From NCBI GenBank assembly GCA_030831165.1, contig JAURLP010000033.1, forward strand, positions 62,001 through 126,000: a stretch of 64,000 nucleotides of DNA, read 5' to 3'. Shown here piece by piece: positions 52,126 to 64,000 of the stretch. Source of the DNA: Gammaproteobacteria bacterium (GTDB lineage Bacteria > Pseudomonadota > Gammaproteobacteria > Pseudomonadales > Pseudohongiellaceae). Positions within the stretch are counted from its first letter, which is position 1. Each line of letters starts with the position of its first letter. The notes under the pieces are model-generated. The model worked only from the letters and a program-made list of their open reading frames with translations. It was not told where the DNA came from and made no database searches. Position numbers and translations under genes: made by a program.

Positions 52126-52564
52126 TTCTAATCCTCGGTGAATCTAGAGGTGGAGAATAATAGTTTGTGAGGTAATGTCAAATTTGTTTTCTTCCTTAAC
52201 TGTACCCCACCTTAATACAAATACTTTAACAATCATGATTAAGGTCAAGCTTGAGGGTGGTTAGTGTGGTAAAAGCCTTTTATACTGGGGAAGTTAGTGA
52301 CGACTTCATATGGAACTTTGTATCGACGTCTTTTCTGAGTAGTATTCAAAAGCAGGAATATTGATTTAAATCATGCAAGTAAAGTGAAATTTCAGTCTAA
52401 TTCGCATCTTAGTGAACTATAAGCTGTTTGAATTTTTAAAAGTATAGTAACTTTGGCCCAGGGCCTATTTGAAGGGGATTCAAGTTAGTCTTTAATGTTA
52501 AAAGCAGGCGCCTTTGACTTACCATAAAAAAAGAATCATAAAACAGAATCAGGAAGGGGGATTC
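52126..52564. other. 439-base gap with a long-spaced inverted repeat
   Basis: ACCTTAA (52209-52215) and TTAAGGT (52239-52245) form an inverted repeat spaced by 23 bases, and a TATACT at 52281-52286 could be a -10 box facing right. No gene is supported on either strand. AGGAAGGGGG just before 52565 is the ribosome-binding site of the next gene. Confidence 0.4.
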
Positions 52565-53590
52565 ATGAGTTTGACGAAACACCTGAAAATTATCGCAGCA
52601 GGCCTAAGCCTTACTGCGTCTGGTGCAATGTTTGCGCAATTTAATGCACCTACACCGGATGCTTTGCCATTCCCAATGGAGTTTGAAACATCCAGAGAAC
52701 ATTATGATTACTTACTTGACTACTATAAAGGTGGCGTTAAGCATGATTATTTAAGCGTGCCTAAATGGGAAGGTCTCTGGTCAACTGGTGGGAATACTGG
52801 CGGCAACAGACCTTTTGTGGAAGATGGTGAAATTATTGAGGGTGTTCTGACTCCTGAATATGAAGCTGCTTTTCGGTATCGCCGAGATCTAGGAGATCAG
52901 GCTTTTAATGCTGGAGTGGACTATGACCGATTGACTACCTGTGAGCCAGCCGGTATGCCACGTTGGTTGTTGGAACCTTATGTCCGAGAATTTTTAAATA
53001 CGCCCACTTATTCACTGTGGCACAATGATTTAGCCAATGATACTCGCCGGATATATATCAATCAGGAACATGTCAACATTGATGGAACTCATTTTGCTGC
53101 TGGTGACAGTATCGGATTTTGGGCAATTGACGATGAATTAGGTAATGTATTAGTTGTGCATACAGAAGATATTTACCCTGCTGATTTTTTCCGTGGAACT
53201 CCTCCAACCAGTAATCAGGCTGAATCAGTTGAAATATATTATGAGTATTGGGACGAGGAAAATGACCAAAAACGAATTGGGGTTAATGTTTACTGGTATG
53301 ACGACTTAGCTTTGCTGGAACCATTGAGTCTCGTCTACACTTTCAGACCACGCCCTGATATGGAAGCTGCTGGTTTACGGATCCGTTATTGGGAATGTGC
53401 ACAAAATCAAAATACCTATCTGACCTTTGACGAAGAAGGCCGGCCCAATACACAGTATCGATTGCCGGGTGATCCAGGATATCTTGATCCACGAGGCACA
53501 CCTGCAACGAGAAACCCGGATTTACCAGCTGATCTGATTGGTCAGGAAAAGAGCCCTATATTTGATGATCAGTTTGATTTCGCATTTTGA
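52565..53590 (+). CDS. Secreted protein of unknown function, DUF6152-partner type
   Basis: From ATG 52565 (AGGAAGGGGG upstream; earlier in-frame TTG is disfavoured) it gives 341 residues with a signal peptide cleaved near MFA-QF. It has a pattern I have seen in marine bacteria: GLWSTGG near 68, LTPEYEAAFRYR near 94, CEPAGMPRWLLEPYVREFLNTP-type block near 125 (Cys-x-Pro-x-GMPR), TRRIYINQEHV near 158 and SIGFWAIDDELGNVLVVHTEDI near 178. The family is secreted and uncharacterised. It precedes the DUF6152 gene by 41 bases, so the two look like an operon. No catalytic motif is recognised. Confidence 0.72.
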   Translation: MSLTKHLKIIAAGLSLTASGAMFAQFNAPTPDALPFPMEFETSREHYDYLLDYYKGGVKHDYLSVPKWEGLWSTGGNTGGNRPFVEDGEIIEGVLTPEYEAAFRYRRDLGDQAFNAGVDYDRLTTCEPAGMPRWLLEPYVREFLNTPTYSLWHNDLANDTRRIYINQEHVNIDGTHFAAGDSIGFWAIDDELGNVLVVHTEDIYPADFFRGTPPTSNQAESVEIYYEYWDEENDQKRIGVNVYWYDDLALLEPLSLVYTFRPRPDMEAAGLRIRYWECAQNQNTYLTFDEEGRPNTQYRLPGDPGYLDPRGTPATRNPDLPADLIGQEKSPIFDDQFDFAF

Positions 53591-53631: not shown

Positions 53632-54108
53632 ATGAAAATATCAATAAAAAAATTATCACTAGCGATCATGGCTGTACTGACTTTCGGTGTGGTTGATTTT
53701 GCAGCTGGGCATCACAGCTTTGCCATGTTTGACAGAGCTCGGGAAGAAGTTACAGGTGGGGAAGTGGTACGCTGGGCCTTTAATAGCCCGCATGTTGCCC
53801 TTTACATCAGGGATGCTGCCGGTGATATCTATGCTTATGAAGGTGCTGCTCCAGCTTCCTTAGTAACACGTTCTGAACCTATGAATGGCTTTACTTTCCA
53901 GCCAGGTGATTCAGTAGAACTAGTTGTATGCCCGCTTCATGATGGACGTAATGGTGGTGCTCTGGGAATTATCATCAAGGATGACGTATGGTATATGCCT
54001 AATGACGGTGGTTGTGGCCCTAATCTGGAGTCCTGGCAGGACTGGATGCCTAAAGGCTATAAATCTAAACAGGCAGCTATCGATGCCGGAGAAGAAGTCG
54101 AAATGTAA
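53632..54108 (+). CDS. DUF6152 family secreted protein
   Basis: The 158-residue protein has a signal peptide (cleaved near AAG-HH) directly followed by the family mark HHSFAMFDRAREEV. An OB-like beta-barrel follows, with WAFNSPHVALYIRD near residue 50 and a Cys-containing PLHDGRNGGALG near 104. DUF6152 proteins are exported and have no assigned role. GTAAGGAG precedes the ATG. A strong terminator lies about 70 bases downstream, closing the two-gene unit. Confidence 0.88.
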   Translation: MKISIKKLSLAIMAVLTFGVVDFAAGHHSFAMFDRAREEVTGGEVVRWAFNSPHVALYIRDAAGDIYAYEGAAPASLVTRSEPMNGFTFQPGDSVELVVCPLHDGRNGGALGIIIKDDVWYMPNDGGCGPNLESWQDWMPKGYKSKQAAIDAGEEVEM

Positions 54109-54347: not shown

Positions 54348-55094
54348 ATGACGTATTGTGTCGCTATTTCGGTGAATTCCGGAATCGTGTTTTGTTCAGA
54401 TTCAAGGACTAATGCTGGAGTAGATAAGGCATATGTCTATAGCAAAATGTTTCGTTTCGAGCTGGGCAATGAAAGGCAGTTTGTGGTGCTTTCGGCCGGA
54501 AACCTGGCAACTAGCCAAGCCACAATGCACCAAATGAAAAAGGACATTCGGTTGAATGCACCGATTAGTCTAAACACGGTTGCCACCTTAAGCGATGCGG
54601 CTGACTACCTTGGCGAAGTCAGTCGAGCTCAAATGGAGAAGCATGACAATACAGGTCCGACCTTTGAAGCCAGTTTTTTAATTGGCGGTCAGATCTATGG
54701 GAGTGAACATAGTGTTGCCTTGGTTTATCCAGCCGGAAACCATATCACCACCTCCCCTGATACCCCTTATTTGCAAATAGGGGAAAGCAAATATGGTAAA
54801 CCGATTCTGGATAGAATAATTGATGTGGACACATCCCTCGAAACAGCTGCACTTTGTGCGCTGGTTTCAATGGATTCCACTATGCGCAGTAATATTACTG
54901 TAGGTCCTCCCATTGAAGTTATGTTTTATCATGCCGATTCGTTTTTATTGCAGCCTCATCACCGTTTTGAAGAAGACAATGAGTTTCTGCGTGGGCTGAA
55001 AAAAGCCTGGGATAGTCGACTCAAAGAAGCCTTCAATCAATTGCCGGGATTATCTTGGACTAACTCCAATAATAATCTCATGCTTAATAAATAA
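54348..55094 (+). CDS. Anbu, proteasome-related peptidase
   Basis: The 248-residue protein is Anbu, the bacterial relative of the 20S proteasome beta subunit: N-terminal M-T-Y-C, so removing Met exposes Thr2 as the nucleophile, then VFCSDSRTNAGVDKAYVYSKMF near residue 14 and LSAGNLATSQ near 48, with GPPIEVMFYHADS near 190. Anbu forms ring- or helix-shaped assemblies; its peptidase substrate is unsettled. In most genomes it sits with an alpha-E, an ATP-grasp and a transglutaminase gene; here only the transglutaminase-DUF2126 gene follows, 24 bases away. AAGG precedes the ATG. Confidence 0.93.
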   Translation: MTYCVAISVNSGIVFCSDSRTNAGVDKAYVYSKMFRFELGNERQFVVLSAGNLATSQATMHQMKKDIRLNAPISLNTVATLSDAADYLGEVSRAQMEKHDNTGPTFEASFLIGGQIYGSEHSVALVYPAGNHITTSPDTPYLQIGESKYGKPILDRIIDVDTSLETAALCALVSMDSTMRSNITVGPPIEVMFYHADSFLLQPHHRFEEDNEFLRGLKKAWDSRLKEAFNQLPGLSWTNSNNNLMLNK

Positions 55095-58361: not shown

Positions 58362-58690
58362 GTATTCGCTTTAGTTGAGAGGCTCTACTCATTTGAGCCT
58401 CTAATGACTGAATGACCCAAGAGTACTTAAAATTACAATAATGAAAGAAAAATGGAACATGTCATTTAAAGTCTCGCTGCAATAGAACAAATCCTGGTGA
58501 TTGCTTTATACTACGGCTCGCATCCAGCTGAAAAAATTTATAATATCTTTTTTAATCAATAAGATAGCTAATAAATCAACTAGCAGGTTAAAGAAATCCG
58601 GATCGAGATCCTTAGCGTAATAAGGTTTAGAAGTTTGTTTATAAGTTTAAAAGAAGTTTAAAAACTTAATAAAAATTGAGGAAGTGGGGA
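58362..58690. other. 329-base gap with a hairpin, no gene
   Basis: AGAGGCTC (58378-58385) pairs with GAGCCTCT (58395-58402), starting 17 bases after the DUF2126 stop; there is no T run, so it may be a weak or Rho-assisted end. A TATACT at 58507-58512 could belong to a promoter for the cytochrome gene. GAGGAAG before 58691 is the ribosome-binding site. Confidence 0.45.
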
Positions 58691-61099
58691 ATGCATTTTA
58701 ATAAGTACATTTATTCTAGTTTACTGTTGTTGTTGTTGCCTTTAGCTGCTTTAGCAGCAGAAAACGATGCAGCAGTTCATCAGGACACGGTTTCTAATTT
58801 TTGTTTTGATTGTCATAACGCTATTGATTGGGAAGGTCAGTTAGCACTTGATCTGCTTGATGTTAGTGACGTTGGTCCGGATGCTGAAACCTGGGAAAGG
58901 GTTGTGAATAAATTAAGAGGTTCAATGATGCCTCCTCCTGGACAGCCTCGTCCCAATCAAGAAACCTATTTTGAACTGGTCAGCTTTCTGGAAGATGAGC
59001 TTGATGAAGCCGCGATGCAACATCCAAACCCTGGTCGCCCAGGACTCTACAGGCTAAACCGTAATCAATATGCAGCCGTTATTCGTGATTTACTGGGCAT
59101 GGATATTGATATGGCAGCGATCCTTCCGCCGGATACTACAAGTTATGGTTTCGATAATATTGCTGATGTGATGAATGTCTCACCGACGCTGCTAGAAGGT
59201 TATCTGGCTGCCGCTGACAGAGTGAGTGCGATTGCTGTCGGCGACCCTGAATTTCCACCAGAGGAGGCAAACTATACTGTTAGCAGTATGCTGTCTCAGG
59301 ATAAACATATTGATGGTTTCCCCCTGGGAACACGTGGCGGTATTTCTGCAGATCATAACTTCCCGCTCGATGGCATTTATGAAATTAATACACATTTTCT
59401 GGTTAATTCTCTTGAAGTTGTCAAAGGGCTTCAGTTTCCCCATCAGTTTGAGGTCAGTATTGATGGGAAGCGAGTTCATACAGCCACTATTGGGGGTATC
59501 GCGGATTACACCTTAATGCTTGAAAATGGTGCTGCTTCTACTGAATCTGTTGAAAATCGTGCAAAAGTGCGTATTGCGGTCCCGGCTGGTGTTCATAATG
59601 TGACTGTAACCTTCTTGGAAAAAACACAGGCATATGAAGTGGATCAGCTTCAGCCTTTTGATAAAAACAATTTCGACCCTGTTTACGTTGGAGGCATTCC
59701 ATCTCCAGCCAGAGTCAATATTCGGGGGCCTTTCAATTCAAGGGCTCCTTCCCAGCTAACCAAAAGCCGGGAAGCAATTTTCAGTTGTTATCCCGATCAG
59801 GTTTCCCAAGAACAGGCTTGTGCTGAAGAAATCATTTCAAGCCTGGCCAGAAAAGCCTATCGAAGACCTGTTGATGATACTGAAGTGGGTGTCTTGATGG
59901 ATTTCTACCTAGAAGGACGTGAATCCAAAGGTACATTTGATGGTGGTATCCAAATGGCCCTGCGCCGTATGTTGATGAGTCCAAATTTCTTGTTCCGAAT
60001 TGAACGGGACCACCCTGATGTTGCTCCAGGCGAAAGTTTTGCAATCAACGACCTTGAACTGGCTTCCAGACTTTCATTTTTCCTTTGGAGCAGTATTCCT
60101 GATGAAGAGCTGATCACTTTGGCCGCCAATGGTCAGTTAAGTGACCCTCAGGTATTGGAGAGACAGGTTAACCGTATGTTGGCCGATGACAGAGCAAACT
60201 CCATCGTCGAGAATTTTGCCGGCCAGTGGCTGCAACTTAGAAATCTGGATGGTGCCACACCGGATGAAATTGCATTCCCGAACTTTGATGATAATCTGCG
60301 CCGAGCGTTCGTGACTGAAACGTCGATGTTTTTTGAAACCATTATGCGTGAGGATAAAAGTGTCATGGAATTGATGACTGCTGATTACACCTATGTCAAT
60401 GAGCGCCTTGCAAGACATTATGATATTCCGGGAGTTTATGGAGATCATTTCCGCTATGTGGAACTGAACGATCCTGCCCGCGGAGGCCTACTGGGACAGG
60501 GGAGTATCCTCACAGTGACATCATTTGCTCACAGGACCTCGCCGGTTCTAAGAGGAAAATTTGTATTGGATAATATTCTTGGTACAAGAGCATCTGACCC
60601 ACCGGATAATGTCCCTGCCTTGGAAGAAAATGATGCTGCAAGTCTAGATCAGGAAGCATTAAGACAGCGCTTGGCCAGGCATCGTGCTGACCCTGCATGT
60701 TCTTCATGCCACAACATCATGGATCCCATAGGCTTGGCGATGGAGAAGTTCGATGCTGTTGGTCGCTGGCGCGATCTTGATGAAGGAGGTCTGCCAATTG
60801 ACTCATCTGGAGAGTTGGCAAATGGCACGCCCATTGATGGTCCGACAGATTTGAAAAATGCCTTAACTGCGCAACCTGAATTATTCGTCAATACTTTTGC
60901 CAACAGAATGCTTACCTATGCTATTGGTAGAGGTCTGGAATATTATGATATGCCCACCGTCAGAGCGATTGTTGATAACACTGCTGATGATGGTTACCGG
61001 TTTTCTGCAATTGTTCAGGAAATTGTGAAATCTGCACCGTTCCTTATGAAACAGGCAGCAGGAGGAGAAGGTCAAATTGCGGCTAACATCAGTCAATAA
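58691..61099 (+). CDS. DUF1592-family secreted cytochrome-like protein (planctomycete-type domains)
   Basis: The 802-residue protein has a signal peptide (cleaved near LAA-EN) and two haem c motifs, CFDCH (Cys38, Cys41, His42) near the start and CSSCH (Cys670, Cys673, His674) near the end. Domains in order fit DUF1587 (LYRLNRNQYAAVIRDLLG near 118), DUF1595/DUF1592 (RKAYRRPVDDTEVG near 385; ELASRLSFFLWSSIPD near 455), DUF1588 (SILTVTSFAHRTSPVLRGKF near 600) and DUF1585. It should be a periplasmic diheme protein. No enzyme activity is established. The DUF1552 gene lies 133 bases downstream. Confidence 0.9.
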   Translation: MHFNKYIYSSLLLLLLPLAALAAENDAAVHQDTVSNFCFDCHNAIDWEGQLALDLLDVSDVGPDAETWERVVNKLRGSMMPPPGQPRPNQETYFELVSFLEDELDEAAMQHPNPGRPGLYRLNRNQYAAVIRDLLGMDIDMAAILPPDTTSYGFDNIADVMNVSPTLLEGYLAAADRVSAIAVGDPEFPPEEANYTVSSMLSQDKHIDGFPLGTRGGISADHNFPLDGIYEINTHFLVNSLEVVKGLQFPHQFEVSIDGKRVHTATIGGIADYTLMLENGAASTESVENRAKVRIAVPAGVHNVTVTFLEKTQAYEVDQLQPFDKNNFDPVYVGGIPSPARVNIRGPFNSRAPSQLTKSREAIFSCYPDQVSQEQACAEEIISSLARKAYRRPVDDTEVGVLMDFYLEGRESKGTFDGGIQMALRRMLMSPNFLFRIERDHPDVAPGESFAINDLELASRLSFFLWSSIPDEELITLAANGQLSDPQVLERQVNRMLADDRANSIVENFAGQWLQLRNLDGATPDEIAFPNFDDNLRRAFVTETSMFFETIMREDKSVMELMTADYTYVNERLARHYDIPGVYGDHFRYVELNDPARGGLLGQGSILTVTSFAHRTSPVLRGKFVLDNILGTRASDPPDNVPALEENDAASLDQEALRQRLARHRADPACSSCHNIMDPIGLAMEKFDAVGRWRDLDEGGLPIDSSGELANGTPIDGPTDLKNALTAQPELFVNTFANRMLTYAIGRGLEYYDMPTVRAIVDNTADDGYRFSAIVQEIVKSAPFLMKQAAGGEGQIAANISQ

Positions 61100-61232
61100 G
61101 ATTGACCTAACTGATTGATTCTGGTACAACTATTTACATAAATTTGATTTATATCAAATAAACATTTTTTAAGAAACAGACTTAAAAGTAACGAGTTAAA
61201 TAAAGTAAAAATATACTTAAGAGGGCAAAAAA

Positions 61233-62567
61233 ATGATGATATTCAAAAAAGCACTAGATCGTCGTACGGTTCTTCGGGGAGCAGGTGCTTCAGTGGCATT
61301 GCCATTCATGGGCGCGATGGTGCCGGCCCTGACTGCTACCGCACAAACAGCGGCCATGCGTCCAAGTCGCGCGGGTTTTGTCTATATTCCTCACGGTTTT
61401 ATTATGACCGACGCGGTGGATTATTGGACACCTGCAACAACAGGCCATAATTTTGAAATGTCTAAAACTTTGGAGCCCTTATCCGCCTTTAGAAACCAGA
61501 TGACTGTTGTCAGTAATTTGATGGGTGCTGATGGTTCTGGCCAGCATACTGGTGCAACGACAGCATGGTTGACAGATATGTATCCTGAGAAAACTCAGGG
61601 AGCCGATATTGGTGCTGGAATTTCAATTGACCAAGTTATCGCTAATCAGATTGGGCAAGACACTATCTTCCCCTCTATGCAGTTGGCCATCGAAGATATT
61701 ACTAGCCTGCTGGGTGCTTGCGACTCTGGTTTCAGCTGTGCATACCTGGATCAGGTTTCCTGGGCATCTGAAGATACCCCTCTACCTACTCAGGTAAACC
61801 CTCGAACTGTATTTGAGCGTATGTTTGGTGGTAGCGGTACTGCTGAACAACGCCTGGCCAGAATGCAACAGAACAGAAGTATCCTTGACTCCGTTTTGGA
61901 AGAAGCGCATCGAACTGAATCCACTCTGGATTCTGAAGACCGTATTCGTCTAGGCGATTTCCTGGAAAATATTAGGGAAGTAGAAAGACGCATCCAGAAT
62001 GCCGAAAGACGCTCTGGTGATCTTGCCGGGATTGCCCCTGAATCTCCAATGGGGGTTCCAGAACTTTACGAAGATCATGTCGATGTGATGTATGATTTGC
62101 TCCACATTGCATTCCAGGCTGACATCACAAGGGTTTTCTCATTAATGATGGCTCGTGATCTCAGTCACTTAAGTTACCCTCAGATAGGTGTGCCTGATCC
62201 TCATCACTCAATTTCTCATCACGCAGATCGTCCTGATGTAATTGAGAAACACTTTAAAGTGAATCACTATCACGTGCAGTTGATCTCACGTTTTATCGAA
62301 AAATTAGCGACTACACCTGATGGCGATGGTTCATTACTGGATCACTCTATGCTACTGATCGGTAGTGGTATGAGTAACGGTAATATGCATATTAAAACAC
62401 GTCTACCAAATGTTATTGTTAGTGGCATGATTGAAGGTAACCGTCACATCGCCGTTGATGATATTTCACGAACGATTGGTCAGTTACATCTGGATATTGC
62501 TCACCAGATGGGTGTTGAGATCAATGACTTCGGTAGAAGTAGTGGTCGAACTGTCGGGCTGGCATAA
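61233..62567 (+). CDS. DUF1552 family protein with Tat-type signal
   Basis: The 444-residue protein starts MMIFKKALDRRTVLRGAG; the Arg-Arg pair before a hydrophobic stretch and AQT cleavage is a Tat signal, so a folded, possibly cofactor-bearing protein is exported. The body has the DUF1552 pattern GFVYIPHGFIM near residue 49, SNLMGADGSGQHTGATTAWLT near 93 and HHSISHHADRPDVIEKH near 328 in the C-terminal half, where His-rich sequence suggests metal binding. It always accompanies DUF1592 proteins in genomes I know. A terminator follows at 62627. Its chemistry is unknown. Confidence 0.9.
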   Translation: MMIFKKALDRRTVLRGAGASVALPFMGAMVPALTATAQTAAMRPSRAGFVYIPHGFIMTDAVDYWTPATTGHNFEMSKTLEPLSAFRNQMTVVSNLMGADGSGQHTGATTAWLTDMYPEKTQGADIGAGISIDQVIANQIGQDTIFPSMQLAIEDITSLLGACDSGFSCAYLDQVSWASEDTPLPTQVNPRTVFERMFGGSGTAEQRLARMQQNRSILDSVLEEAHRTESTLDSEDRIRLGDFLENIREVERRIQNAERRSGDLAGIAPESPMGVPELYEDHVDVMYDLLHIAFQADITRVFSLMMARDLSHLSYPQIGVPDPHHSISHHADRPDVIEKHFKVNHYHVQLISRFIEKLATTPDGDGSLLDHSMLLIGSGMSNGNMHIKTRLPNVIVSGMIEGNRHIAVDDISRTIGQLHLDIAHQMGVEINDFGRSSGRTVGLA

Positions 62568-62626
62568 GCTGGCATAAAACGTTAGCAAATTCAGTTGGGA
62601 TTCCTGACTGATATTTAAATCGAAAT

Positions 62627-62663
62627 TGCCAGGTTATTGAGAAAAAATAGCCTGGCATTTTTT
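62627..62663 (+). terminator. Rho-independent terminator after the DUF1552 gene
   Basis: TGCCAGG (62627-62633) pairs with CCTGGCA (62651-62657) around a 17-base loop, then a T run to 62663. The long loop lowers confidence slightly. Confidence 0.75.
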
Positions 62664-62719
62664 CAGAGATTTATTAAATTGTTTTGATGGTTTAAAAGAA
62701 AAACTTTAGAGGTCAGCTC

Positions 62720-64000
62720 ATGCAAATAATCAAACGCACAATAACATTGATATTCGTATTGTTCATTACAGCGTTAACTGTACCGGCAAGCGCCCAGAAT
62801 GAACAAAGTCTTGATGATTTGAGAGTTGCTTTAGCATCGGGCATGGATGTGGATTCTGCAAAAGCCGATGGCACGACTCTTTTAATGGAAGCTATTTATT
62901 ACCGTGAAGCCGACAAAGCTCGCTTGCTGATTGAATCCGGTGCAGATGTTAATGCTGAAAACCGTTATGGCATGACGCCTATATTTCTTGCTGCACGAGC
63001 CGGTATGAGTGATATCGGTATTTTGCTTCTAAGTGCTGGAGTCAACCCCAATAGCACAAATGCAGAAGGTGAGACCCTGCTCATGACGGCATCTAAAGCT
63101 GGGGCCACCGACCTCGTAAGAGCCCTTTTAACCAACGATCTAGATAGAATGATCGTTGGTGTTGATCCTAATCTGACTGAAAGTTGGAGAGGTCAAACTG
63201 CACTAATGTGGGCGGCAGCAGAAGATCACACAGATGTAATCCAGGTCTTGATAGATGGTGGTGCTCATATTAATAAGTTGTCAGCTTATCAAAAATTTAT
63301 AGAGCCAGATCCAGATAAACGTCAAGGTGGTTTCGTATACCCACGAATTCCCAAAGGGCGCTTTTCAGCATTACATTTTGCAGCAAGGGAAGGTAAATTG
63401 GCTGCTGCTCAAACACTTATATATAACGGTGCGAATTTAGATATCCAAGATGAAGAAGGTAGTACTCCGGCCTTGCTAGCAACACTGAATGGTCATTATG
63501 AGATTGCCGCTGCTTTGTTAAATGCTGGCGCAGATGTCAATATCCAGGATAAGCGTGGTCGAACATTATTATTTATGGCAACTGATATGCATACATTGGA
63601 TGCCAATCCTCGCCCTGGACCTAAACCCTATGGTGAGTTAGATAGCCTGGATATCATAAAACTGGCGTTGGAAAAAGGGGCTGACCCCAACCTGACGCTT
63701 ACAGATGGTTTGCCTTCATGGTTGGCTCAGGGTTCAGCGCATAATGGCTTGCTTAATAAAGGTGCTACGCCACTTTTAAGGGCATCGATGTCAGGTGATT
63801 TGGAGGTAATTAATCTACTTCTAGAAGCCGGTGCAGACCCTTACCTGGTAACTGAAGAAAGAGAAGGGGGGCGTGGCAACCCTAATGGCCTCACTAATGT
63901 TGTCATGGCGGCAGCAGGTATTAGCTGGAGACCATCCATAAGTCGAGGTCGTGATGCCGATGCAGTTGCAGCTCTGGATTTATTCTTGAATGAGTATGAT
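62720..64000 (+). CDS. Periplasmic ankyrin-repeat protein, C-terminus cut off by window edge
   Basis: The frame from the ATG at 62720 stays open to the end (427 codons). It starts with a signal peptide (MQIIKRTITLIFVLFITA, cleaved near ASA-QN). At least eight ankyrin repeats follow, e.g. DGTTLLMEAIYYREADKARL near residue 51, YGMTPIFLAARAGMSD near 82, GQTALMWAAAEDHTDV near 159, SALHFAAREGKLA near 215 and GSTPALLATLNGHYE near 247. Ankyrin repeats bind proteins; in the periplasm the partners are unknown. AGAGGTC precedes the ATG. It follows the DUF1592-DUF1552 genes, from which it is separated by a terminator. Confidence 0.92.
   Translation, partial: MQIIKRTITLIFVLFITALTVPASAQNEQSLDDLRVALASGMDVDSAKADGTTLLMEAIYYREADKARLLIESGADVNAENRYGMTPIFLAARAGMSDIGILLLSAGVNPNSTNAEGETLLMTASKAGATDLVRALLTNDLDRMIVGVDPNLTESWRGQTALMWAAAEDHTDVIQVLIDGGAHINKLSAYQKFIEPDPDKRQGGFVYPRIPKGRFSALHFAAREGKLAAAQTLIYNGANLDIQDEEGSTPALLATLNGHYEIAAALLNAGADVNIQDKRGRTLLFMATDMHTLDANPRPGPKPYGELDSLDIIKLALEKGADPNLTLTDGLPSWLAQGSAHNGLLNKGATPLLRASMSGDLEVINLLLEAGADPYLVTEEREGGRGNPNGLTNVVMAAAGISWRPSISRGRDADAVAALDLFLNEYD

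Follow-up and report, generated by a model that had tools for sequence, protein, structure and literature searches.

A linked PSD-DUF1552-ankyrin gene trio in a family of Pseudomonadales as a candidate secreted oxidoreductase module

Described relatives and the locus

PSCyt and PSD genes are numerous in some aquatic bacteria, where their function is not known, and the main text of a 2017 study of Verrucomicrobia describes PSCyt3 genes beside a family of unknown genes, with sulfatase genes also found near PSCyt genes (PMC5615132). The locus described here resembles these PSCyt3/PSD loci of Verrucomicrobia and Planctomycetes in its PSCyt/PSD domains, in its neighboring gene of unknown function and in the many copies per genome. 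It differs in its host, a family of Pseudomonadales, and in carrying an ankyrin gene. The sequence-only reading had proposed an undescribed system; for PSCyt3 and its adjacent gene family the 2017 description takes precedence, but an ankyrin gene does not appear in its main text.

A second set of relatives comprises Cbp2D of Cellvibrio japonicus and the proteins TERTU_2913 and TERTU_3803 with their X183 and X132 domains: relatives of the PSD module form the end of large CBM2/cytochrome or CBM26/sugar dehydrogenase/cytochrome proteins, and X132 is probably the PSD module itself. In two studies, cbp2D or cbp2E mutants use cellulose poorly (PMC12542752, PMC10916295), and results with the TERTU proteins are, according to their authors, inconsistent with electron donation to LPMO (PMC10916295). 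Ankyrin proteins are presented as activity or haem-supply factors in the AnkB-KatB system of Pseudomonas aeruginosa and the Cj1386-KatA system of Campylobacter jejuni, with AnkB called periplasmic and an ank-katE operon shown in Leptospira (as cited in PMC7567364). The likeness to our locus is an ankyrin gene beside a haem-protein gene, export and haem being predicted here, whereas the known partner is a catalase and here it is the PSD/DUF1552 pair. Finally, DUF1501-DUF1800 pairs occur, for example, beside bacterial chitin synthases (PMC5122149). DUF1501 also carries twin arginines, aligns with DUF1552 and is paired with a family lacking an assigned function, although that partner family differs from PSD.

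Within the window (the whole 64,000-nucleotide stretch analyzed), a diheme PSD/DUF1592 gene, a Tat-type DUF1552 gene and an ankyrin gene with a signal-peptide-like N-terminus are consecutive on the plus strand (Table 1). Pfam matches and ORF positions confirm this arrangement, which had been read from the letters alone; export and periplasmic location are predictions. Judged from ORF ends, the intergenic gaps are 133 bases (PSD to DUF1552) and 152 bases (DUF1552 to ankyrin). ORFs were taken as simple longest ORFs and their starts are therefore rough: the PSD ORF as listed begins at a TTG at position 58676, but we prefer the alternative ATG in Table 1 because a GAGGAA stretch precedes it. The ankyrin protein, complete in its contig, has 542 residues and 9 ankyrin repeat matches. 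With a confidence that falls a little short of even, we propose that the three genes form one secreted (periplasmic) oxidoreductase module with its own ankyrin assembly factor.

Table 1. Features of the trio and two nearby genes; coordinates are window positions.
Feature	Position	Strand	Basis or remark
PSD protein, DUF1587-DUF1595-DUF1592-DUF1588-DUF1585	58691..61099	+	Pfam; predicted exported, two CxxCH motifs
First CxxCH (CFDCH) of PSD protein	58802..58816	+	Motif reading and alignment
Beta-sandwich insert, between PSD3 and PSD5	59246..59743	+	Structure comparison; resembles CBM35/CBM36
Second CxxCH (CSSCH), within PSCyt3/DUF1588	60698..60712	+	Motif reading and alignment
DUF1552 (HXXSHH) protein, alkaline-phosphatase-superfamily fold	61233..62567	+	Pfam, AF2, Foldseek, VIA-align
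Twin arginines R10 R11, Tat-type signal	61260..61265	+	Conservation
His105 of DUF1552, sulfatase-nucleophile spacing	61545..61547	+	Conservation; aligned to His149 of DUF1501
HxxSHH motif (H325, S328, H329, H330) of DUF1552	62205..62222	+	Conservation
His386 of DUF1552	62388..62390	+	Conservation; aligned to His355 of DUF1501
Ankyrin-repeat protein, signal-like N-terminus	62720..64000, runs on to 64348	+	Pfam; full ORF in L019
Exported protein, cluster c3; not core part	52514..53590	+	84% identical to c3 member over 341 residues
DUF6152 protein; not core part	53632..54108	+	Pfam

Linkage of the ankyrin gene to the PSD/DUF1552 pair

In one bacterial family of Pseudomonadales, a single genome can hold up to ~15 complete trios. 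Both partners (PSD4 and ankyrin) lie near 100 of the 127 DUF1552 genes of the family set, 36 of these trios being near a contig or fetch edge; a MAG with the label Rhodospirillales (L027) and a member of another family of the same order (L139) are counted in this set, whereas L025 and L026 are left out, their contigs being equal in length to contigs of G004 and G003. The PSD gene adjoins DUF1552 in 112/127 family-set loci and in all 11 loci from outside the family. In eight genomes, 66 of 73 ankyrin ORFs among the matches listed are no more than 7 kb from a module, where 4.9 would be expected. Spacing is tight: the trio genes mostly overlap or are closely set on one strand, with a PSD4-DUF1552 gap of at most 200 bases in 87/89 trios and the ankyrin gene on the same strand in 84/89. 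Paralogous trios also diverge jointly, with within-genome Spearman coefficients of 0.73, 0.63 and 0.58 that none of 1000 shuffles reaches. Such a pattern tells us that the genes are inherited together; it does not tell us that their proteins touch. Because of the linkage counts, the ankyrin enrichment and this joint divergence, the trio is more than chance, and we reject a chance neighborhood. The earlier proposal that the ankyrin gene belongs to the module is thus well supported by conserved linkage, same-strand spacing and joint paralogue divergence.

The ankyrin gene might still be a passenger, functionally unconnected to the pair, if the three genes came together a single time in an ancestor and were duplicated jointly from then on. 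Block duplication alone predicts the joint divergence, but we consider this history very improbable, given that the trio recurs in L128 and L133, which represent two further families of the class, and on an alphaproteobacterial Novosphingobium plasmid, and that just 7 of the 73 ankyrin ORFs among the matches listed lie away from modules. In addition, the ankyrin gene is downstream of the pair in 73/89 trios and upstream in 16/89, a variable position that argues for its retention. The association has exceptions: five solo DUF1552 orthologues are without both partners, seven short-type PSD-DUF1552 pairs are without ankyrin, and no ankyrin gene was found in 9/11 outside loci within the stretch examined. 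The single short-type trio, L041, has its PSD4 split into two ORFs. Some loci are harder to read by these methods, since opposite-strand ORFs masked genes in two high-GC records (L238, L239); a scan of genome contigs with a single protein returned three loci only, and an alignment query would suit better. As to what the ankyrin protein may do, the scaffold proposed earlier is one of two readings, the other being a protein that supports enzyme activity or supplies haem.

Fold and conserved residues of DUF1552

The Pfam match to DUF1552 (HXXSHH, PF07586) is strong (E 2.8e-87, 293.6 bits against a cut-off of 30), and the HxxSHH motif is present. R10 and R11 are invariant in 103/103 aligned sequences, and RRx[FLIVT][LIM] occurs in 86/89 DUF1552 proteins of trios, from which we predict Tat export. 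The protein had been described as His-rich. At 19 histidines in 444 residues its content is only modest, although four histidines are among its best conserved residues: H105, H325 and H329 are kept in 139/139 sequences and H386 in 138/139. D133 is kept almost everywhere, while H330 is variable in short-type and non-family proteins. It had also been argued that Tat export implies cytoplasmic folding around a cofactor, and the conserved histidines would fit such an inference.

Searches by sequence for a solved relative of DUF1552 gave no convincing match. Its AF2 model (mean pLDDT 85.8) falls into the alkaline-phosphatase superfamily in Foldseek (E 5.7e-5), with a VIA-align Z of 16.9 against 7stt (rmsd 3.7, 266 aligned), a fold common to sulfatases, phosphodiesterases and phosphoethanolamine transferases. 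A sulfatase profile matches the C-terminal part only (E 1.8e-6, probability 90%). His105 is spaced like the C in CTPSRGGLLTG in 139/139 sequences, although the N-terminal profile alignment with sulfatases is not significant. The sulfatase nucleophile is apparently replaced by a histidine in DUF1552. The likeness to the superfamily, which includes the NPP enzymes, lies in the fold; the metal ligands are not kept in the host family, and the residue at the nucleophile position appears not to be. Position 379, which aligns with the metal-ligand region of sulfatases, is N or G in 110/121 long-type family proteins, in which the acidic metal ligands of the superfamily are absent, and position 54 is H in 108/121.

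DUF1552 and DUF1501 match each other by profile (327 columns, probability 77%, E 2e-5 in a single comparison). Their alignment spans most of the length and places H105/H149 and H386/H355 in register. For DUF1501, neither a sequence search for a solved relative nor the sulfatase profile (probability 7.5%, E 0.005) gave a convincing match. Because the sulfatase profile covers only the C-terminal part of DUF1552, the N-terminal comparison is not significant and DUF1501 gives no convincing match to that profile, H105 is assigned to the nucleophile position from motif spacing and from the alignment of DUF1552 with DUF1501. The two families also differ: the first strand of DUF1501 holds an invariant aspartate where DUF1552 of the host family mostly has His, His298 of DUF1501 stands on the variable position 330, one place beside H329, and H325 and D133 have no conserved partner in DUF1501.

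DUF1552 could instead use a histidine as nucleophile on the alkaline-phosphatase fold and act as a hydrolase or transferase, the cytochrome serving sensing or a separate second step. The clear superfamily fold speaks for this, as do the acidic residue (D/E) at position 379 in 7/7 short-type and 8/11 outside proteins and the sulfatase genes near PSCyt genes in the Verrucomicrobia text cited above. We nevertheless regard it as unlikely, in view of the N or G found at position 379 in most of the long family type and of the PSD gene that so regularly adjoins DUF1552, inside the family and outside it.

The PSD protein, redox context and proposed mechanism

In the PSD protein all five DUF domains are present, Pfam giving the order PSCyt1/PSD3/PSD5/PSD4/PSCyt3/PSD2 (DUF1587, 1595, 1592, 1588, 1585), with E 8.6e-49 for DUF1592. 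The 807-residue ORF has CxxCH motifs at residues 43 and 675, and the second (CSSCH) falls within the DUF1588 match (602-700) as a predicted c-type haem motif. Among 85 aligned PSD sequences, C, C and H of the second motif are all invariant; in the first motif the second C and the H are invariant and the first C is kept in at least 90%. The AF2 model (mean pLDDT 89.3) includes a beta-sandwich insert that matches 2w47 at VIA-align Z 8.8 (rmsd 3.4, 111 aligned), with an equal Z of 8.8 to Pgp3, a jelly roll that is not a sugar-binding module. The Foldseek list held no convincing solved match for the helical part, from which novelty of the fold does not follow, and sequence searches found no convincing solved relative.

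The redox role suggested earlier is supported indirectly. Two CxxCH motifs occur in 88/89 PSD proteins of trios, four loci have a gene for a small two-CxxCH protein between those for DUF1552 and ankyrin, and cytochrome c' and cytochrome b561 genes directly follow the pair in Sphingobium herbicidovorans; DUF1552 itself, however, has CxxCH in 0/89. In loci from outside the family, fusion of the PSD region to CBM2 or sugar-dehydrogenase modules is frequent, or the region lies beside cytochromes; all seven large outside fusion proteins have their last CxxCH in the PSD region. A link of the module to sugars is suggested by these partners: CBM2 is found in the PSD-containing proteins of L129 and L130, another fusion joins the PSD module to CBM26 and a glucose/sorbosone dehydrogenase domain, and in Planctomyces, covered here by one plasmid, a 3-keto-disaccharide hydrolase gene adjoins the pair.

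These fusions also bear on a further reading, in which the pair supplies electrons for polysaccharide oxidation, like the LPMO role proposed for Cbp2D, and DUF1552 relays electrons and binds no substrate. The PSD module ends a CBM2-fn3-cytochrome-PSD protein in L130, whose cytochrome part just before PSD matches the solved X183 domain of Cbp2D (7b21, E 1.3e-4), and the cellulose phenotype of the cbp2D and cbp2E mutants points the same way. By contrast, the window protein has neither CBM2 nor fn3 by Pfam, and the published TERTU results conflict, by their authors' account, with LPMO donation; we hold this role to be quite unlikely. The window protein also differs from the Cbp2D-type proteins in lacking the dehydrogenase and in having an N-terminal haem motif and beta-sandwich insert of its own.

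Tannase, lignostilbene-type (RPE65), Rieske-type and aromatic-acid-transporter-type genes lie near some modules, the latter two labels being a reading of N-termini. We dropped aromatic or lignin catabolism as a common context because PQQ dehydrogenases are not enriched near modules (7/260 vs 4/130 controls, in Pfam tallies covering 260 of 416 neighbor clusters and 130 of 227 control ORFs) and tannase-type genes, at 8 in 1163 kb of flanks vs 1 in 280 kb of random regions, are too scarce for a verdict. Members of cluster c3 are often near modules, with 75 in the same flanks vs 4 in the same random regions; Pfam gave no match for the one member tested.

Under the oxidoreductase module that we tentatively favor, DUF1552 would bind a metal through its conserved histidines while folding in the cytoplasm, leave by Tat and act in the periplasm as the catalytic subunit, oxidizing a small organic molecule such as a sugar, glycoside or phenolic that the PSD protein may help to bind. 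Electrons would travel through the two PSD haems, then via small soluble cytochromes into the respiratory chain. Each ankyrin protein would assist assembly or supply the cofactor specifically for the PSD/DUF1552 pair encoded beside it, much as AnkB serves KatB, and the numerous diverged copies within a genome would cover many substrates.

In phage contigs DUF1552 stands by itself, which weighs against the module. Among 27 viral stretches fitting two PSD4 patterns there were 0 relatives. One phage query matched no DUF1552 in deposited phage records. On a wider and doubtful, though not negligible, view, DUF1552 and DUF1501 would form one Tat-exported branch of the alkaline-phosphatase superfamily, its hydrolytic center rebuilt to a histidine-held metal site, giving a redox enzyme with a large helical haem partner and, in the host family, an ankyrin assembly factor for each pair; phages would have taken DUF1552 several times, altering host metabolism.

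We know of no redox chemistry on the alkaline-phosphatase fold, which would gain a new chemistry if DUF1552 is redox-active. The ankyrin gene provides a third handle on the PSD/DUF1552 pair, the fold and the four conserved histidines define a concrete site on DUF1552, and the Cbp2D-type link ties the pair to a published cellulose growth phenotype. The phage copies of DUF1552 hint that this step is of importance for viruses as well.

A conserved three-gene module with DUF1552

The window closes with three adjacent genes on one strand, encoding a PSD protein, a DUF1552 protein and an ankyrin-repeat protein, as the sequence-only reading had described, and we conclude that this trio is a real, conserved three-gene module.

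Features of the trio at the end of the window
Feature	Position	Strand	Basis
PSD protein	58691-61099	+	Pfam PSCyt1, PSD3, PSD5, PSD4, PSCyt3, PSD2 (DUF1587, 1595, 1592, 1588, 1585); two CxxCH motifs
DUF1552 (HXXSHH in the Pfam copy used)	61233-62567	+	Pfam
Ankyrin-repeat protein	from 62720, past window end	+	Pfam; complete at 542 residues

We examined the neighbourhoods of 138 DUF1552 genes, 127 of them mostly from the host's bacterial family (the family set) and 11 from other families. Both PSD4 and ankyrin genes are near DUF1552 at 100 of the 127 family-set loci; the rest have ankyrin alone (8), PSD4 alone (12, including 7 of a short PSD4 type) or neither (7), and some of these absences may be edge effects, as 48 of the 127 loci lie close to a contig or fetch edge. 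The sequence-only reading had proposed a neighbourhood survey for ankyrin genes linked to DUF1552, and their co-occurrence exceeds chance. Counted from the ankyrin side, 66 of the 73 ankyrin ORFs listed from eight genomes have a PSD4 or DUF1552 match no more than 7 kb away, where uniform spread predicts 4.9. Random control regions carry an ankyrin gene in 1 of 20 cases. Of the 89 trios that are complete, 73 have the ankyrin gene downstream (overlapping DUF1552 in 23) and 16 have it upstream; it shares the strand of the pair in 84, and the PSD protein has two CxxCH motifs in 88. Paralogue distances are correlated within genomes (462 pairs; DUF1552-PSD4 0.73, DUF1552-ankyrin 0.63, PSD4-ankyrin 0.58), and none of 1000 within-genome shuffles equals these values; at the level of sequence, the correlation shows joint inheritance of the trio genes and is silent on contact between their proteins. 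Thirteen loci are listed with one or more genes between DUF1552 and ankyrin: a protein of 304-351 residues that carries an RR signal (6 loci), a small two-CxxCH protein (4), or a small exported-type protein (3, two with an additional gene that, judged from its N-terminus, resembles DUF6152).

The window (G000:C25:62001-126000) is part of a 2.3 Mb draft genome with four DUF1552 genes, four DUF1592 genes and ankyrin matches at five sites, namely three trios, a contig end where an ankyrin gene lies 5' of a DUF1592 gene, and a contig edge whose upstream side lies beyond the contig. DUF1552 is matched in 18 of 37 genomes (this one and its relatives), with a maximum of 19 copies, and is rare more widely, being present in 6 genomes out of 369 drawn from the class and in 8 out of 398 drawn from the phylum (our genome being counted in both). 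In G013 and G022, family genomes that lack DUF1552, ankyrin matches are also absent at E 1e-5. In the trio closest to the window's (L041, genome G004) the PSD4 gene is split into a 133-residue and a 669-residue ORF. Of the seven DUF1552 genes with neither partner, five are at inner loci (L023, L049, L053, L062, L076); these solo orthologues come one from each of the host genus's five genomes, with a glutathione-transferase-type gene immediately 5' in 5/5 and a tannase/feruloyl-esterase-type gene nearby in 4/5.

Similar proteasome-type peptidase genes lie one on each side of the window's trio (window 54348-55094 and L019:11481-12260), the assignment being a Pfam match for the 54348-55094 gene only, below cut-off. 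Between them are a DUF2126 amidoligase gene (Pfam), the trio, and what we take to be lookalikes of the Memo/radical-SAM and ATP-grasp/alpha-E pairs; the trio looks like an insertion into a proteasome-type peptidase/amidoligase neighbourhood.

Two protein clusters were compared between module flanks (1163 kb, 125 loci, the flanks of related loci not being independent) and 280 kb of random regions: c4, a metallo-beta-lactamase-fold family, counts 53 against 0, and c3, an exported-type family, 75 against 4. Pfam tallies over 260 neighbours and 130 controls give Lactamase_B 11 and 2, DUF6152 10 and 2, and PQQ 7 and 4. The c3 family, to which the exported-type protein at window 52514-53590 belongs, is found at 40 loci, and one member searched against Pfam and NCBIfam gave no match. 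The c4 family, present at 37 loci (for example L048:5556-6503), is weakly like 'quinoprotein relay system' hydrolases, and in 33 of 38 cases its gene lies at most 1.5 kb 5' of a module gene that has the same orientation.

Predicted folds and the DUF1552 histidines

The PSD protein model (mean pLDDT 89.3) contains a beta-sandwich at residues 185-350 that is CBM35/CBM36-like (Z 8.8, 111 aligned) and equally like Pgp3, with C1q-like jelly rolls slightly lower. The AlphaFold2 model of DUF1552, built on 103 sequences from our loci (mean pLDDT 85.8), retrieves sulfatases, LtaP and YejM in Foldseek (best E 5.7e-5), and VIA-align superposes it on a Pedobacter sulfatase (Z 16.9, rmsd 3.7, 266 aligned); nucleotide pyrophosphatases and MCR-1 follow closely. 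In single profile-profile comparisons, a DUF1552 profile of 139 sequences aligns by its C-terminal part with sulfatases (E 1.8e-6, probability 90%) and over 327 columns with DUF1501, another Tat-type family (E 2e-5, probability 77%). With the 103-sequence alignment the DUF1501 match is confined to the N-terminal 120 columns; direct comparison of the DUF1552 N-terminal part with sulfatases gave no significant match, and DUF1501 itself matches sulfatases weakly (probability 7.5%). In excerpts of PMC5122149, DUF1501 is paired with DUF1800 and is described as having a Tat motif.

Four residues, H105, H325, H329 and G55, do not vary across 139 DUF1552 sequences; H386 and D133 each occur in 138. H105 is spaced like the nucleophile of sulfatases (compare HEGGMRKVLTG in L129 with CTPSRGGLLTG in a sulfatase). 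Invariant His149 and His355 of DUF1501 align with H105 and H386, and its His298 with DUF1552 position 330, adjacent to H329. We interpret this pattern as a rebuilt active site, which would most probably be a metal site. When phage and plasmid copies were added, H329 lost its invariance through a Planctomyces protein; we rejected a loss of the motif there, for the sequence reads HLLSH and the alignment is shifted by one.

Copies in phages and other families, and a probable link to Cbp2D-like proteins

Seven IMG/VR contigs (L232, L233, L234, L235, L236, L237, L245) hold seven whole and two cut DUF1552 genes, with tandem pairs in L232 and L233. The L235 gene is flanked by a tail sheath stabiliser and a terminase, phage nucleotide-metabolism genes are close by in L234 and L237, and a virion protein in L232; L245 looks T4-like from its ORFs. 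The phage-contig genes have Tat-type N-termini. No PSD4 or ankyrin neighbour was seen within the stretches read of the seven contigs. One phage DUF1552 found no match in PHROGs, and another none among 50,697 phage records. In a tree of 75 sequences, including 45 sampled family members, phage copies fall in four places, one of them weakly supported (0.67).

At the loci from other families PSD4 adjoins DUF1552 in 11/11, with ankyrin too in two (L128, L133), and a Novosphingobium plasmid has the order PSD4, DUF1552, ankyrin. The pair is followed by cytochrome c' and cytochrome b561 genes in Sphingobium herbicidovorans and by a 3-keto-disaccharide hydrolase gene in Planctomyces sp. SH-PL62. At seven of the loci from other families the PSD module forms the C-terminal end of a larger protein (1254-2369 residues). 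Two of these proteins have cytochrome domains along with three CBM2 matches, three combine CBM26 with a glucose/sorbosone dehydrogenase domain, and the other two have PKD-type and Ig-type domains, respectively. In the two loci with CBM2 (L129, L130), DUF1552 is followed by a flavocytochrome c sulfide dehydrogenase-type FAD gene (Pfam basis for L129), and flavocytochrome c haem subunits are the match for the foremost cytochrome part in the L130 PSD protein (3vrd, E 1.3e-31).

Directly before the PSD module of L130 stands a cytochrome with matches to the solved X183 domain (7b21, E 1.3e-4) of Cbp2D, a Cellvibrio japonicus protein with X183 and X132 domains, and to solved chain 8q1v, a 'putative lipoprotein' (E 3.7e-9). 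According to excerpts of PMC10916295, X132 is the C-terminal domain of Cbp2D and of the TERTU proteins (TERTU_2913, TERTU_3803) and contains CxxCH, and its start in the latter is annotated 'DUF1687'. Because we suspect 'DUF1687' to be a misprint of DUF1587, the first PSD domain, X132 is probably the PSD module. In the portions seen of PMC12542752 and PMC10916295, cbp2D or cbp2E mutants use cellulose poorly, and the findings on the TERTU proteins are described as seemingly at odds with electron donation to LPMOs.

Significance

Excerpts of PMC5615132 note that PSCyt3 genes adjoin a family of unknown genes, the functions of both being described as not known. In our literature search, with most subscription papers outside its scope, 'ankyrin' appeared nowhere alongside DUF1552, DUF1592, HXXSHH, PF07586 or PSCyt3. 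The mechanism of the module is a reasoned proposal, no more. The PSD/DUF1552 pair was already known; our analysis adds a partner with ankyrin repeats, a fold for DUF1552 together with its set of histidines, a connection to Cbp2D-like proteins, and the copies carried by phages.
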